Shown here piece by piece: positions 1 through 6,486 of a stretch of 64,000 bases of DNA. Numbering within the stretch: the first letter of the stretch is position 1; every line of letters begins with the position of its first letter. The notes below the pieces were generated by a model, which was not told the DNA's origin, did not search any database, and was given only the letters and a program-made list of their open reading frames with translations. The stretch is from Prevotella sp. GTDB lineage: Bacteria > Bacteroidota > Bacteroidia > Bacteroidales > Bacteroidaceae. The translations under genes and the position numbers were made by a program. The stretch is from positions 1 through 64,000 of the forward strand of contig JAEEQB010000005.1 of the NCBI GenBank assembly GCA_016285075.1, in the 5' to 3' direction.

Positions 1-334
1 CCTTCTTCACGTTCTCGTAGTTCTTGCCGCTGTCGATGTATTCCGTCACCAGCTTCGAGGCACCGAACAGGATGCGCTGGAAATAGGCATACTCCGACTC
101 TCCCTGCACCTCTACCAGCAGCATCTCTCCGTCTTCATCCTCTGCCAGCAGGTCCACCCGGTTCAGCTTGGCGTCGTCACGGTCCTTGTTCCCCTCGCTC
201 TCCAGCAGGCGGTGGATCTTCACCGGACGGTCCAGCAGCGTGGACACGAACCCCTCGAGCACACCGAAGTTGGCCTTGTCACGCAGCAGGCGCTTCAAGG
301 CCCAGTCGAAACAGATGAATGTCTTGTCTCTCAT
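1..334 (-). CDS. Rpn/PD-(D/E)XK nuclease-family protein, C-terminus cut by window edge
   Basis: Partial gene of 111 codons that runs off the left end, so it is absent from the ORF track. It starts at an ATG (332-334) and reads MRDKTFICFDWALKRLLRD, then a stretch with KLNRVDLLAEDEDGEMLLVEVQ. This pattern (FDWALKRLL..., D-x(n)-E-V-Q nuclease core) is typical of the Rpn / PDDEXK_2 'recombination-promoting nuclease/putative transposase' family, where D and ExQ/ExK belong to the PD-(D/E)XK active site. Family members are often multicopy and associated with genome rearrangement. The family call is from pattern recognition; the C-terminal half is not visible. Confidence 0.75.
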   Translation of the reverse strand, partial: MRDKTFICFDWALKRLLRDKANFGVLEGFVSTLLDRPVKIHRLLESEGNKDRDDAKLNRVDLLAEDEDGEMLLVEVQGESEYAYFQRILFGASKLVTEYIDSGKNYENVKK

Positions 335-769: not shown

Positions 770-898
770 ATGAAGATAGTTTTGCGGGTAATAATCTCGG
801 GGCTATCTGTGCTTGCTACAATTGCCGTTCACATTGCTGGCAAAGAACTACGTTATCTTCAAAGAAATATACTAATAAAAAAAGAATTGTTGTTATGA
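770..898 (+). CDS. Possible 42-residue membrane peptide, translationally coupled to the esterase
   Basis: ATG at 770 opens 42 codons (MKIVLRVIISGLSVLATIAV...) ending in TGA at 896-898, which overlaps the esterase start (ATGATG at 895-900) in an ATGA arrangement. The N-terminal half is hydrophobic enough for one membrane segment and the C-terminal half is basic. A -7 box TACATTTGC (about 740-748) lies 20 nt upstream. It is below the ORF-track cutoff. It could be a real small protein, a leader peptide that sets esterase translation, or chance; no strong Shine-Dalgarno is visible. Confidence 0.3.
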   Translation: MKIVLRVIISGLSVLATIAVHIAGKELRYLQRNILIKKELLL

Positions 899-2040
899 TG
901 AGAACCTCTAAGACCGACAAGACCCTATGGGCATTGCTGCTGTGTGTCTTTTCCATTCTTCCTTTACATGCTGGCACCACATTGCCGCTGAAGGGTACGT
1001 TCGTCAGTCCCGCCGACAAACATATCAAATATGTAGGGCGTATCAGTTTCCAGAACCCGGAACGTCCTGCATGGAACTACCCAGGCACACAGATCATAGC
1101 TGCTTTTAAGGGCACTCAGGCAAAGCTGGTCTGTAAACCGGGAAGCGGTTACTTCATGGCTCAGATAGACCAGGCCGAGCCGTTCAAGGTGGCATTCCGC
1201 GGGCAGCGTGACTCGGTGGTGACGCTCTGCACTGCGCTGGCAGACGGCGTGCACACGGTGAGGCTGATGTATACCATAGAGGGTTACGAGATGAATCCCG
1301 AATTCTGGGGTTTCGTCTTCGACGGCCCTGTTGTGGACGCACCATCCTTGCCTGCAAGAAACATGGAGTTCATTGGCAACAGCATTACCTGTGGTTATGG
1401 CAATGAAGCCATGAACAGTAGTGACCACTTTGAATATGAGACAGAGAACCATTATTATGGCTATGCCCAGTTGACGGCTCGTGCGCTGGATGCCAAGGCA
1501 AGCATCGTGGCCCGCAGCGGCATTGGTGCCTATCGTAACTACAATGGTCCGAAGACCGGCAACCCTGAAAGTCACATGCCTGTACAGTATGAGTACACCG
1601 CCTATGCTTATGACACGAAGCTCCGTCAGGAACCTGGACTGCATGGCGAGAAGTGGGATTTCAGCCGCTTTACTCCAGATGTGGTATGTATTAATCTTGG
1701 CACTAACGACCTGTCGACTAGCAACTATGACACCCAGCTGCTGAAGAAAGGTTATCAGCGGTTGCTGAAGATGGTACGTGGTCATAACCCCAAGGCCAAG
1801 ATTGTGTTCCTGTGTGGCTCAATGCTGACCGGCAAGGAACTCGGCATCTGCAAGCAGTTGCTCAACGAGGTGTGTGACGAAGCACACAAGGCAGGCGACG
1901 AAGAGGTATACCGCTTCGACTTCTCACCCTCTAAAGGTAGTCTGAAGTATGGTGCCGATTATCATCCCAGCGTGTGGCAGCATGAGCTGATGGCTGCCGA
2001 GCTGACCGCTTTCCTGCGTACGCTGATGCAGTGGTGGTGA
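895..2040 (+). CDS. Secreted SGNH-hydrolase, carbohydrate esterase family 2-like
   Basis: The 381-residue protein has a signal peptide (ends near residue 27, ILPLHAG). An N-terminal beta-rich domain (about 30-150) is followed by an SGNH hydrolase domain starting with the nucleophile motif GNSITCGYG near residue 159. Further blocks are CINLGTNDLS (GxND block) and, near the C-terminus, DYHPS carrying the catalytic His. Jelly-roll plus SGNH order is that of CE2 acetyl esterases, which deacetylate plant polysaccharides such as xylan or glucomannan; the exact substrate cannot be read. The protein should act in the periplasm or at the surface. Either ATG of ATGATG could be used. No PUL partner is adjacent. 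Confidence 0.82.
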   Translation: MMRTSKTDKTLWALLLCVFSILPLHAGTTLPLKGTFVSPADKHIKYVGRISFQNPERPAWNYPGTQIIAAFKGTQAKLVCKPGSGYFMAQIDQAEPFKVAFRGQRDSVVTLCTALADGVHTVRLMYTIEGYEMNPEFWGFVFDGPVVDAPSLPARNMEFIGNSITCGYGNEAMNSSDHFEYETENHYYGYAQLTARALDAKASIVARSGIGAYRNYNGPKTGNPESHMPVQYEYTAYAYDTKLRQEPGLHGEKWDFSRFTPDVVCINLGTNDLSTSNYDTQLLKKGYQRLLKMVRGHNPKAKIVFLCGSMLTGKELGICKQLLNEVCDEAHKAGDEEVYRFDFSPSKGSLKYGADYHPSVWQHELMAAELTAFLRTLMQWW

Positions 2041-2164: not shown

Positions 2165-2197
2165 CATTGCACTTTGCACTTTTTTCCCTATATTTGC
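2165..2197 (+). promoter_or_regulatory. Promoter of the 33-residue peptide unit
   Basis: -7 box TATATTTGC at 2189-2197 with a weaker ATTG-containing -33 region near 2165-2169. It precedes a strong ribosome site (taggagga, 2223-2230). A 17-bp direct repeat (agtRctaatacattRtt) sits at 2042-2058 and 2202-2218, once just after the esterase stop and once in this leader. Confidence 0.5.
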
Positions 2198-2236
2198 ACT
2201 GAGTACTAATACATTATTCTAATAGGAGGAATTCTT

Positions 2237-2338
2237 ATGCCAACTAAAACACAATTTGAAAAGGAAGAGGTGAAGTTTGAAAGCATGAAGACTGACGGCT
2301 ATTCACCCGAAATGGAAACATCGATCTGGTATAACTAA
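2237..2338 (+). CDS. 33-residue small peptide gene with its own promoter, RBS and terminator
   Basis: ATG at 2237 follows TAGGAGGAATTCTT, the best Shine-Dalgarno in this part of the window; the frame is MPTKTQFEKEEVKFESMKTD... and ends SIWYN-stop at 2338. A Bacteroidota -7 box lies 40 nt upstream and a GC-rich intrinsic terminator starts 14 nt downstream, so this is a complete monocistronic unit. The peptide is charged, has no signal sequence or membrane segment, and ends in an aromatic WYN. I do not recognise a family. It could be a RiPP-like precursor, a regulatory peptide or a small structural protein; no modification enzyme is adjacent. Confidence 0.6.
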   Translation: MPTKTQFEKEEVKFESMKTDGYSPEMETSIWYN

Positions 2339-2351
2339 ACACACAGGGAGA

Positions 2352-2383
2352 AAAAGCGTGCCGACCACAGTCGGCACGCTTTT
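2352..2383 (+). terminator. Intrinsic terminator of the peptide gene
   Basis: Perfect 14-bp stem AAAAGCGTGCCGAC / GTCGGCACGCTTTT with a CACA loop, followed by TCTTT. It would work in both directions. Confidence 0.85.
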
Positions 2384-2566: not shown

Positions 2567-2638
2567 GCCCTGATAGTTAAATGGATATAACAAGGCTCTC
2601 CTAAAGCTTAGTTCCGAGTTCGATTCTCGGTCGGGGTA
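2567..2638 (+). tRNA. tRNA-Arg (anticodon CCT)
   Basis: Cloverleaf read by eye: acceptor GCCCTGA pairs with TCGGGGT (two G-U pairs); D stem GTTA/TAAC; anticodon stem AGGCT/AGCTT with loop CTCCTAA, giving anticodon CCT (reads AGG); T arm CCGAG-TTCGATT-CTCGG. Discriminator A; CCA is not encoded, as is usual in Bacteroidota. The shadow ORFs here (2386..2580 and 2477..2668) are rejected. Confidence 0.93.
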
Positions 2639-2641
2639 CTG

Positions 2642-3804: not shown

Positions 3805-6486
3805 TTATTCCTGCCTTTCCATATAAGTTGCCACCATTCTCATGAAGTGAGGGTACATTTCACATATTTCATTATCAGTATGCTTGTTGCCTTTGCTATC
3901 CTTATAGGTTAACTGGATGTTTACCCTGAGGCACGTAGTAAGTGCTTTATAGCTAGTTACAGTGTAAGTTCCTTCCTGAGAAACAGCCCACTTCCCAGCA
4001 TCGGCTCCTTTTGATTTGTTATACTTCGTTTCCATTGTATAACTGCCATTACTATTGAAGGTGAACCTGTAATACAAGTAGCCTCCCAAATTGTCGGGTC
4101 CTTCGTTTGGGTTGTACCACGTTCCAACAAAGAGCTTTGACAGATCCTGGAGCTTATACGGTCCGGCTTCCTGTTTCACAACCACCGGCGTGTAGAGACG
4201 ATCCTTCTCTGTTGGGTTCTCCTTTTTCGTGAAGTATATCTTCAGGGTGTCGGTACGAGCACTCTTCGTATCGTTCGGTGATATAATGACATACCATTGG
4301 TTTGTGTGGCGCTTTGGCGACAAGTAGTCAACATTCCATCCAGCCGTTATCCATTTGGCGGCATCGTTGCTGAGCACCCAGTTCGAATTTGTGTAGTCGC
4401 CAAATGTCACCTTCACAGGTAGTGCCCCACCTATTGAGGGCACCGTCAGCACCGTGGGAGAGACGCTTGGGCCGCCAGACTGATCTGCTGCCTGATTCAC
4501 GGTGACAGTAACTGCCTGTACCACTTTTTTGTTGAATACTCCCTCTTTTACAGCGCGCTCTACGTTTTCCTGGCTATTGGCAGCATAGACGGTGAAGGTG
4601 CCCGAGCGTTCCTTGCCAGTATCGTTGGGGTCGACCTCTACCACGATGTTCCAGCCAGTCTCCGTTTCTTTCCAACTCAGATCGCACCATGAGGATAGTT
4701 CTTCGCCGATGACAGGTAAAGTATAGTTCAGGGCATTGGAATGGGTAATCTCAACCTCCTTCTTGCCACCCTTGGCGTCAAACTTCAGGGATGACGGTGA
4801 GGCGTCTACCCACTCCTCATAGACTGGTGGGAGCGTTTGCTTCACGGTGAGCACGGTGGTCTTCAGTACCTTGCCCTTTGAGTCGGTGGCAGCCACAGTG
4901 ACATGGCCCGTCCGCTCCTTTCCTGTGTCGTTCTTGGCTACGGTAACATAGAGGTAATTGATATCTTTGCCCATTCTGGCTGAAATCCATTTATCGGCAG
5001 AGTCGGGGATGCAAGTGTAGTACATATAGTTGGTCTCTACCATGACTTTATAGTTTCCACCATATCCGCCTTCGTCTATCATAGGGTTCCTTCCAAGTTT
5101 AAGGATACCTTTTTCAGGGTTCTCCTCAAGCAGTCTCTCGTCGTGCTCCAAGTCGAAAGTTATATCCATCGGATCATCATCAATATTCACAACTTTGGTC
5201 TTACGCTTGCCGGTTTGTTTGTTCACAACAGTGACAATCTTTGCACCTACCGATTGGGGATTGACAACAATCATTCCGTTGTTTTCGTTGGGAAAGCCAA
5301 TAATTGCCTTTCCAGTCTTCTCGTCTTGAATGACAACAAGGTCGATGGGCTTGCCATTTTTGTCCTTTACCGTGCAAGGATTCGTGATGATGCCAGCATC
5401 TCCATCATATATTTCCTTGAAGTAATCCTCATAATTGCCAATGATGCTTAATAAAGCTCCTTGGCCAAGTGTTTCATCGAATTCATCGAAAAGGTCATAA
5501 CCCTGCCATCCGTTTCCCTTTTTCAAGTTCATGAGGTAAGGATAATAGTTGACGAGGTTGCCTAAGCCGTTCTGCACTAATTCCTTCCCGGTTTTTGCAT
5601 CCCAATGCGTAACAAACTCAAGCCCTGCGTCTAAACCGTTATAGATGTCTTTGCCATAGTTTACCGAGCTACTGAAAAGTCCCATACTTCCAGGTATGCA
5701 ATCTATAATGAGCCCCAGACTTGCTTTACAAAGCTCACCGCCTATGATACCAATGTTACGACTTGGCGTAACTCCCATTTCCATGGCTTTTTCCCTGAAA
5801 TCAGGATGTGTTCTGTAGAGAGTGGTGAACACTACATTGCTCCGTGTTGAAATCTCTCCTTTACTATATGCTTTCCAGAATTCGGTGGCATTGCTGAAGC
5901 CTCGGCGTGTTTCAGAAGGAAGGGTTTCGTACAAATCTTGCAGCATAGATGGGTTATTTCCCCATCCCGCCTCATTGATGACGGCGATCACCGATTTGCG
6001 GCCCATGCCCACGCTTTTCATACCTCCCCTGAAAAAATCAATCATATCGGAAACACCGCGTGTCTCGTTGACAGTTGAGAGTACTCCCGAGACCTCCAGG
6101 CGTTCTAATGCCTCTGTGTAGGTATCACGGTTCTCTAAAATGTGATCCAAAATCTCATACAACAGTTCACCACAGCCGTACTCGTCTTTGTCAAGATCCT
6201 TGGCAGTGGCACAGAACGCCTTACCGTCTTCGAGGCTGTTAGATACAAGCATTAGCCAAACCAAACGGAAAGAATGTAGGTCAAGGGCATAGGTGGCCAA
6301 CGCATCCAAGTCATTTTGGAACGTCTTCGAGTCCTCATACTGTGTCACTTTGACAAAGTCCTTCACGGTCTCACCTACCTCGATAGAGGCTTCCGGTTCG
6401 TCTTCTGATTCACATGATGTGGTAAAAGTGGCCAGTGACAACATGGCCAGCAGCAGCAATAATGCCTGATTTCGCATTTTCTTCAT
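3805..6486 (-). CDS. Large lipoprotein with BACON domains and a C-terminal lipocalin-like domain
   Basis: 893 residues. A signal peptide with lipobox (FTTSCESED; Cys 25) sends it to the outer membrane. The N-terminal half (about 40-420) is mostly helical and unrecognised. From about residue 470 come repeated beta-sandwich units with the BACON signature, e.g. SPSSLKFDAKGGKKEVEIT and the recurring NDTGKER-[ST]G phrase (three times). The last 130 residues (LFVGTWYNPNEG...YRFTFNSNGSYTME) look like a lipocalin/DUF-type domain. BACON domains are thought to bind carbohydrate or mucin or to act as spacers. No enzymatic motif is seen. No PUL neighbour is present, so the ligand is unknown. Confidence 0.72.
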   Translation of the reverse strand: MKKMRNQALLLLLAMLSLATFTTSCESEDEPEASIEVGETVKDFVKVTQYEDSKTFQNDLDALATYALDLHSFRLVWLMLVSNSLEDGKAFCATAKDLDKDEYGCGELLYEILDHILENRDTYTEALERLEVSGVLSTVNETRGVSDMIDFFRGGMKSVGMGRKSVIAVINEAGWGNNPSMLQDLYETLPSETRRGFSNATEFWKAYSKGEISTRSNVVFTTLYRTHPDFREKAMEMGVTPSRNIGIIGGELCKASLGLIIDCIPGSMGLFSSSVNYGKDIYNGLDAGLEFVTHWDAKTGKELVQNGLGNLVNYYPYLMNLKKGNGWQGYDLFDEFDETLGQGALLSIIGNYEDYFKEIYDGDAGIITNPCTVKDKNGKPIDLVVIQDEKTGKAIIGFPNENNGMIVVNPQSVGAKIVTVVNKQTGKRKTKVVNIDDDPMDITFDLEHDERLLEENPEKGILKLGRNPMIDEGGYGGNYKVMVETNYMYYTCIPDSADKWISARMGKDINYLYVTVAKNDTGKERTGHVTVAATDSKGKVLKTTVLTVKQTLPPVYEEWVDASPSSLKFDAKGGKKEVEITHSNALNYTLPVIGEELSSWCDLSWKETETGWNIVVEVDPNDTGKERSGTFTVYAANSQENVERAVKEGVFNKKVVQAVTVTVNQAADQSGGPSVSPTVLTVPSIGGALPVKVTFGDYTNSNWVLSNDAAKWITAGWNVDYLSPKRHTNQWYVIISPNDTKSARTDTLKIYFTKKENPTEKDRLYTPVVVKQEAGPYKLQDLSKLFVGTWYNPNEGPDNLGGYLYYRFTFNSNGSYTMETKYNKSKGADAGKWAVSQEGTYTVTSYKALTTCLRVNIQLTYKDSKGNKHTDNEICEMYPHFMRMVATYMERQE

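Follow-up and report, generated by a model that had tools for sequence, protein, structure and literature searches.

A predicted stand-alone microprotein gene family of Prevotella with a conserved Shine-Dalgarno sequence

Can some 220 bp of Prevotella DNA hold a complete gene for a 33-residue peptide and, if so, how might that peptide act? The preliminary description of the window (the whole 64,000-nucleotide stretch of DNA that was analysed) had placed a promoter, a strong Shine-Dalgarno (SD) sequence, 33 codons ending SIWYN and a terminator with a 14-bp stem within 220 bp, and all four are found where it put them (Table 1). At the consensus 19-nt spacing, the −33 element of the promoter is TTG preceded by A, the full TTTG being absent, and transcription is inferred to start at about position 2203. 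The terminator hairpin alone has a computed free energy of −24.2 kcal/mol; it is a near-palindrome and could also stop transcription from the opposite side. The arrangement strongly suggests that the unit is transcribed singly, between a promoter and a terminator of its own. A generic scan for sigma-70 promoters and terminators missed both ends of the unit because its Bacteroidota-type promoter, and a tail made up of the stem's own T-run, deviate from the models. GGAGG lies 4 to 12 nt upstream of an ATG at 17 sites in the 64 kb, one of which, the unit itself, has TAnnTTTG within 60 nt upstream; as the sole such case, and with a frame conserved between species under purifying selection, the unit is placed beyond chance. 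Its own genome holds a single copy of the gene.

Table 1. Features of the microprotein locus and its immediate surroundings in the window
Feature	Position	Strand	Details
CE2-type esterase gene	895-2040		upstream of the microprotein gene
Small transcription unit	2165-2383	+	promoter, SD, ORF and terminator read from sequence
Bacteroidota-type promoter	2167-2196	+	−33 TTG 2167-2169, 19-nt spacer, −7 box TATATTTG 2189-2196
Short 5' leader	2203-2236	+	~34 nt, ACTAA present, little structure, MFE −2.9 kcal/mol
Shine-Dalgarno GGAGG	2225-2229	+	7 nt 5' of ATG 2237
Microprotein ORF	2237-2338	+	33 codons, coordinates including stop; product MPTKTQFEKEEVKFESMKTDGYSPEMETSIWYN
Codons for C-terminal S[IV]WY[NST] motif	2321-2335	+	within the ORF
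Intrinsic terminator	2352-2383	+	AAAAGCGTGCCGAC-CACA-GTCGGCACGCTTTT; perfect 14-bp stem, 4-nt loop
tRNA-Arg, anticodon CCT	2567-2639		downstream of the microprotein gene; own putative promoter

The gene belongs to a family. A search with the 33-mer in 60 relatives gave two convincing, although weak, matches, L002 (MSTKNERNEEKKLDLKRVEGYSPTQLPSIWYS) and L004 (MKKTRKMQHEEEYEFDNVYNSEADELYSVESETSIWYS), and the layout of promoter, SD and terminator at L002 is that of the window unit; two other matches (L003 and L005) lie within longer or unrelated frames and were rejected. DNA encoding SIWY[NS] followed by a stop was found 32 times in 398 same-genus genomes, against 9 matches for the reversed pattern used as a control; 29 of the 32 proved to be small frames preceded by a GGAG-type SD, the remaining three (L008, L009 and L031) being chance matches. 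Profiles A3 and A4, built from these pattern-found members, matched 91 of the 276 near-complete same-genus genomes, often with one or two copies each; a few of the weakest matches fall within long frames and probably reflect chance. In the taxonomic family, 37 of 299 genomes were matched, in two genera only. There was no credible match in 246 other genomes of the order, where the hit in G775 (E = 0.003) falls inside a 791-residue frame. A DNA pattern combining SD and motif, run on 84,980 species genomes, returned at least 78 in-frame members among at least 117 matches; among the matches listed, the titles of in-frame members are Prevotella-type or other Bacteroidales with one exception, "uncultured bacterium," and matches outside Bacteroidales failed the in-frame test. 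Among the carriers are cultured isolates of species from the gut, rumen and mouth, namely, Prevotella ruminicola KHT3, Segatella copri iA622 and iAQ1173, Leyella stercorea An906 and Hoylesella saccharolytica JCM 17484.

All searches combined gathered 128 distinct coding sequences, for proteins of 32 to 39 residues, from Prevotella sensu lato (the GTDB genus and one sister genus). As far as searched, the family appears to be confined to Prevotella-type gut, rumen and oral bacteria. The window member has the family's profile match (E = 6e-12 against A3, a profile that contains this member), C-terminal S[IV]WY[NST], GGAGG SD and Bacteroidota promoter, and, where they align, it shares 43 to 52% identity with relatives from other genomes. 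Scans of 27 members against Pfam, NCBIfam, PHROGs and PADLOC gave only isolated single-member matches (E = 0.035 to 0.2), a PDB search gave none, and no mention of the motif strings was found in the literature searched. The family is thus absent from the curated databases checked, although members may sit unnamed in the small-ORF catalogues GMSC and sORFdb. One locus, L300 (contig C6 of G481), carries two tandem copies about 300 bp apart, near 5476 and 5772 and without a clear SD, which are a recent duplication. Phage and plasmid records contained no members, setting aside L285, a 2.3-kb IMG/VR contig whose peptide is identical to the bacterial one of L002; it is likely host DNA within a viral collection and poor evidence of phage carriage.

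The preliminary description would have the gene abandoned if its frame were not conserved or if synonymous and nonsynonymous changes occurred equally. The frame is conserved and, over 156 close pairs (72 to 97% nucleotide identity), the mean pS is 0.50 against a mean pN of 0.13, with pS exceeding pN in 150 pairs, which are not independent of one another. Between the window gene and its eight nearest relatives, pS is 0.51 to 0.83 and pN is 0.16 to 0.29. As judged by these comparisons, the reading frame is shown to be under purifying selection and to be a real coding gene, and translation of the window gene is strongly supported because of the selection on its frame. The gene is strongly supported as a self-contained unit encoding a peptide of no known family: the family is uncatalogued, the frame is conserved and pS is far above pN.

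The C terminus is the most conserved part of the peptide and is nearly invariant across species. Almost all members end S[IV]WY[NST], and WY occupies positions −3 and −2 in 120 of 125 distinct peptides; this frequency is partly a matter of ascertainment, and that of the exact ending is inflated because many members were found by a pattern containing it. A minority of members have variant C termini (SGWYA, SAMFY and DLRYK). Two subtypes share the S[IV]WY[NST] end: subtype 1, mostly with a long leader, has YELDNVYN in midpeptide, and subtype 2, to which the window member belongs, has the form STK...VDSYSPEVETSIWYN and a leader of about 30 to 50 nt. ACTAA is present in 33 of 59 short leaders, compared to 17% in shuffles. 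A third subtype, beginning MKRKPKMHNEQEFNLDNVYQEDERQLDNLDD (L145, L155, L157 and L159), keeps the N-terminal half and the SD and lacks the SIWY end. The peptides are acidic, with a median net charge of −4, and contain neither a signal sequence nor a hydrophobic stretch; AlphaFold predicts one helix at residues 4 to 19 and no confident fold (pLDDT 67.5, low confidence). A likeness of SIWY to the C terminus of bS21 (HAIYVQKL, L298) was dropped as too short to mean anything.

Several lines of evidence favor an autonomous gene. First, a terminator-like hairpin follows 66 of 127 members, compared to 4.4% of shuffled sequences. Second, 116 of the 128 members have TAnn(T/C)TTG in the 200 nt before them, compared to 18% of random places. 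Third, clustering of the neighbors over 29 loci revealed nothing shared across clades and no conserved partner gene. The neighbors that do recur, presumably TerC and GH97, then ksgA, FKBP and aroC, and also NfeD and SPFH, represent within-clade synteny only and were rejected as conserved neighbors. At L299, a sulfatase gene and that of its radical-SAM maturase adjoin the microprotein copy, but they are convergent with it and the arrangement, seen at this single locus, is not repeated elsewhere.

A terminator hairpin directly after a short ORF is also what would be expected of a leader peptide and attenuator controlling transcription of the next gene, and in five relatives of the window's subtype (L043, L052, L057, L062 and L063) a TerC-like membrane protein gene follows codirectionally about 200 nt downstream, beyond the stop and terminator of the microprotein gene. 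Attenuation is nevertheless very improbable: the next gene is codirectional at 18 of the 29 loci but convergent at 11, no antiterminator was seen, and the next element in the window is a tRNA-Arg gene with its own putative promoter, beyond which the genes are on the opposite strand, so that the next protein gene is oppositely oriented. Because members stand alone at unrelated loci with their own promoter and often a terminator, the gene is taken to be neither an operon gene nor an attenuator.

The preliminary description was right in assigning the gene to no known family but, from the charged body and aromatic end, had likened the product to a precursor or signalling peptide, and this second part is not supported. 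Such a precursor would be secreted, with the C-terminal SIWYN piece as the signal, and the short charged body, the aromatic C terminus and the strong conservation of that end would all suit it. However, a secreted signal or RiPP calls for an export signal and a linked exporter, peptidase or maturase. The peptide lacks the former, and no exporter (or other transporter), peptidase or protease, receptor or maturase is conserved beside the gene across the 29 loci. Signals between cells usually diversify, whereas this peptide end hardly varies from species to species, and the midpeptide YELDNVYN of the long-leader subtype is conserved as well. We therefore regard a signalling precursor as quite unlikely.

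Bacteroidota are the standard example of bacteria with an anti-SD sequence that they retain but do not use. Among 57 members found by a protein profile, that is, by a query without the SD, 68% have GGAGG, and 53 have some SD (GGAG, GAGG or AAGGA); one group has AAGGA only, and L091, L104, L109 and L114 are without a clear SD. By comparison, GGAGG precedes 2 of 335 control ORFs (0.6%) and, within the window, none of 40 long ORFs. The controls, drawn from the window and neighboring loci, were ORFs of 200 residues or more whose first ATG was taken as the start; some of these starts are therefore wrong, and the contrast is large in spite of this and agrees with the literature. For pairing energies, we assumed the 13-nt 16S tail ACACCUCCUUUCU from general knowledge of Bacteroidia, the 16S 3' end not being found in this assembly; with this assumed tail, the duplex of the window SD has −10.2 kcal/mol, compared to a median of −1.6 for control ORFs.

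In Bacteroidia, a pocket made up of bS21, bS18 and bS6 conceals the anti-SD of the ribosome; without bS21, ribosomes gain the reading of strong SDs and selectively translate strong-SD rpsU mRNA (PMC9976891). The microprotein family resembles the rpsU (bS21) and rpsR (bS18) mRNAs of Bacteroidia in having a conserved strong SD within SD-poor Bacteroidota, theirs being read by the 16S tail that bS21, bS18 and bS6 normally hide (PMC9976891). It differs in that its product is not a ribosomal protein and that rpsU of the window's own genome has no SD; rpsU of Bacteroidales misses the strong-SD criteria, unlike that of sister orders, and rpsR often has an SD (PMC9976891). The pairing of about −10 kcal/mol is similar to that of rpsR and weaker than that of rpsU (−14 to −21 kcal/mol), and the window SD (−10.2 kcal/mol with the assumed tail) does not reach the pairing below −13 kcal/mol that is linked to bS21-type autoregulation of rpsU-type genes (PMC9976891). 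In Prevotella bryantii, the yield of a reporter was much the same whether an SD was added or removed (PMC3155529); given this result, GGAGG might serve RNA pairing or another role.

The leaders of the long-leader subtype carry a further element. In 32 of 50, two hairpins precede the SD, with loops that are perfectly complementary over 5 to 7 nt (P ≤ 0.05 for each leader against 40 dinucleotide shuffles of itself). The loop pairs vary between species yet stay complementary, e.g., GTCTC/GAGAC, GGCTCC/GGAGCC, GCCCCAG/CTGGGGC, GTTCCG/CGGAAC, TTCCCC/GGGGAA and GTGCTCC/GGAGCAC. When hairpins were picked by stem strength alone, matched loops were complementary over 4.81 nt, compared to 3.08 nt for permuted loops, and 0 of 5,000 permutations were as high (P = 0.0002, with related leaders not fully independent). 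No Rfam family matches the leaders or terminators: tRNA alone scored above threshold in the scans, the leader matches being single, chance-like and far below the gathering score. The kissing-loop element is absent from the short leader of the window and is therefore a feature of the family, not of the window finding. In the IncIα and IncB plasmids, the repZ leader has two hairpins that form an intramolecular loop-loop pseudoknot and can control translation. Two leader hairpins with pairing loops are common to both systems, but there is no sequence relation, and the element described here has no upstream leader peptide, precedes a microprotein and occurs in the long-leader subtype only.

Such leaders raise the question of whether the RNA is the working part, as a small regulatory and possibly dual-function RNA with the open frame secondary. 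A short transcript (about 180 nt) bounded by a promoter and terminator of its own is sRNA-like, and the structured leaders covary; set against this, pS far above pN indicates selection on the protein, and leaders of the short-leader subtype are nearly devoid of structure. An RNA with a secondary frame is conceivable but rather unlikely, although the RNA may have a function alongside the peptide. Kissing loops are also a theme of antisense-controlled genes, and a structured leader bearing them, on a short autonomous gene often present in one or two copies per genome, would fit the toxin of a type I toxin-antitoxin system. Such a toxin would be a short hydrophobic membrane peptide with an antisense RNA. 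The acidic peptide looks soluble, is not hydrophobic and is not a membrane helix, there was no PADLOC match, and members are not on plasmids or phages. A type I toxin seems very unlikely.

We tentatively favor, at a little short of an even chance, a stand-alone gene for a cytosolic, acidic and mostly disordered microprotein that acts in trans via its SIWY motif and whose dose is set at translation initiation. Action in trans in the cytosol via SIWY is inferred because the end is conserved, there is no signal sequence and there are no linked genes; the peptide would dock its C-terminal SIWY motif onto a partner protein or ribonucleoprotein. Its dose would be controlled by a strong SD that is used largely by ribosomes whose anti-SD is exposed; candidates are subunits that are stressed, immature or devoid of bS21 or bS18. 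In long-leader members, the kissing loops would switch the leader open or shut, and in the short-leader member of the window only the SD part of this control would apply. SgrT of Escherichia coli is a cytosolic regulatory microprotein of about 40 residues that is made from a short autonomous transcript and acts in trans on a partner; the SIWY family would share these traits but has no sequence similarity to SgrT. A bolder form of the proposal is a sensor of ribosome state, in which none but ribosomes whose anti-SD is exposed would read the mRNA and the aromatic C terminus of the peptide would feed back on ribosome or stress physiology. We consider this form unlikely; if true, bacteria that elsewhere take no notice of Shine-Dalgarno sequences would have an effector peptide gated by an SD and tuned by kissing loops.

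Autonomous, lineage-restricted microprotein genes are known as a kind. Families in GMSC (PMC11364881) and sORFdb (PMC11796252) are likewise short, lineage-restricted, conserved frames without a Pfam domain; here, by comparison, a transcription unit, an SD, a leader RNA and a motif have been delineated, and they join two sequence subtypes into one family. What is unusual is the conserved strong SD in an SD-blind lineage and the covarying kissing-loop leader of the sister subtype, both of which are new beyond the preliminary description. With GGAGG conserved across Prevotella and members in about one-third of the genus genomes searched, the family offers a natural probe of when and how these ribosomes read the SD, and the near-invariant C-terminal motif provides a direct handle for finding the partner.

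Three further observations concern the surroundings of the gene. At window positions 2 to 334, on the minus strand, lies a partial transposase of the PD-(D/E)XK nuclease family (PDDEXK_2; Pfam E = 5.6e-15), cut by the contig end. A lipoprotein-like protein of 893 residues with BACON domains is encoded at 3805 to 6486, also on the minus strand. Finally, a 36-nt element, AAGTAAGAAACGGCCTNAAAGNCCAAAAGCTTACAG, occurs at 553 to 588 and at 2686 to 2721, flanking the stretch with the esterase and microprotein genes, and a third copy is present on contig C79 of the same genome; it holds nested inverted repeats (TAAG/CTTA and GGCC/GGCC) and may represent a REP-like sequence or a vestige of a mobile element.
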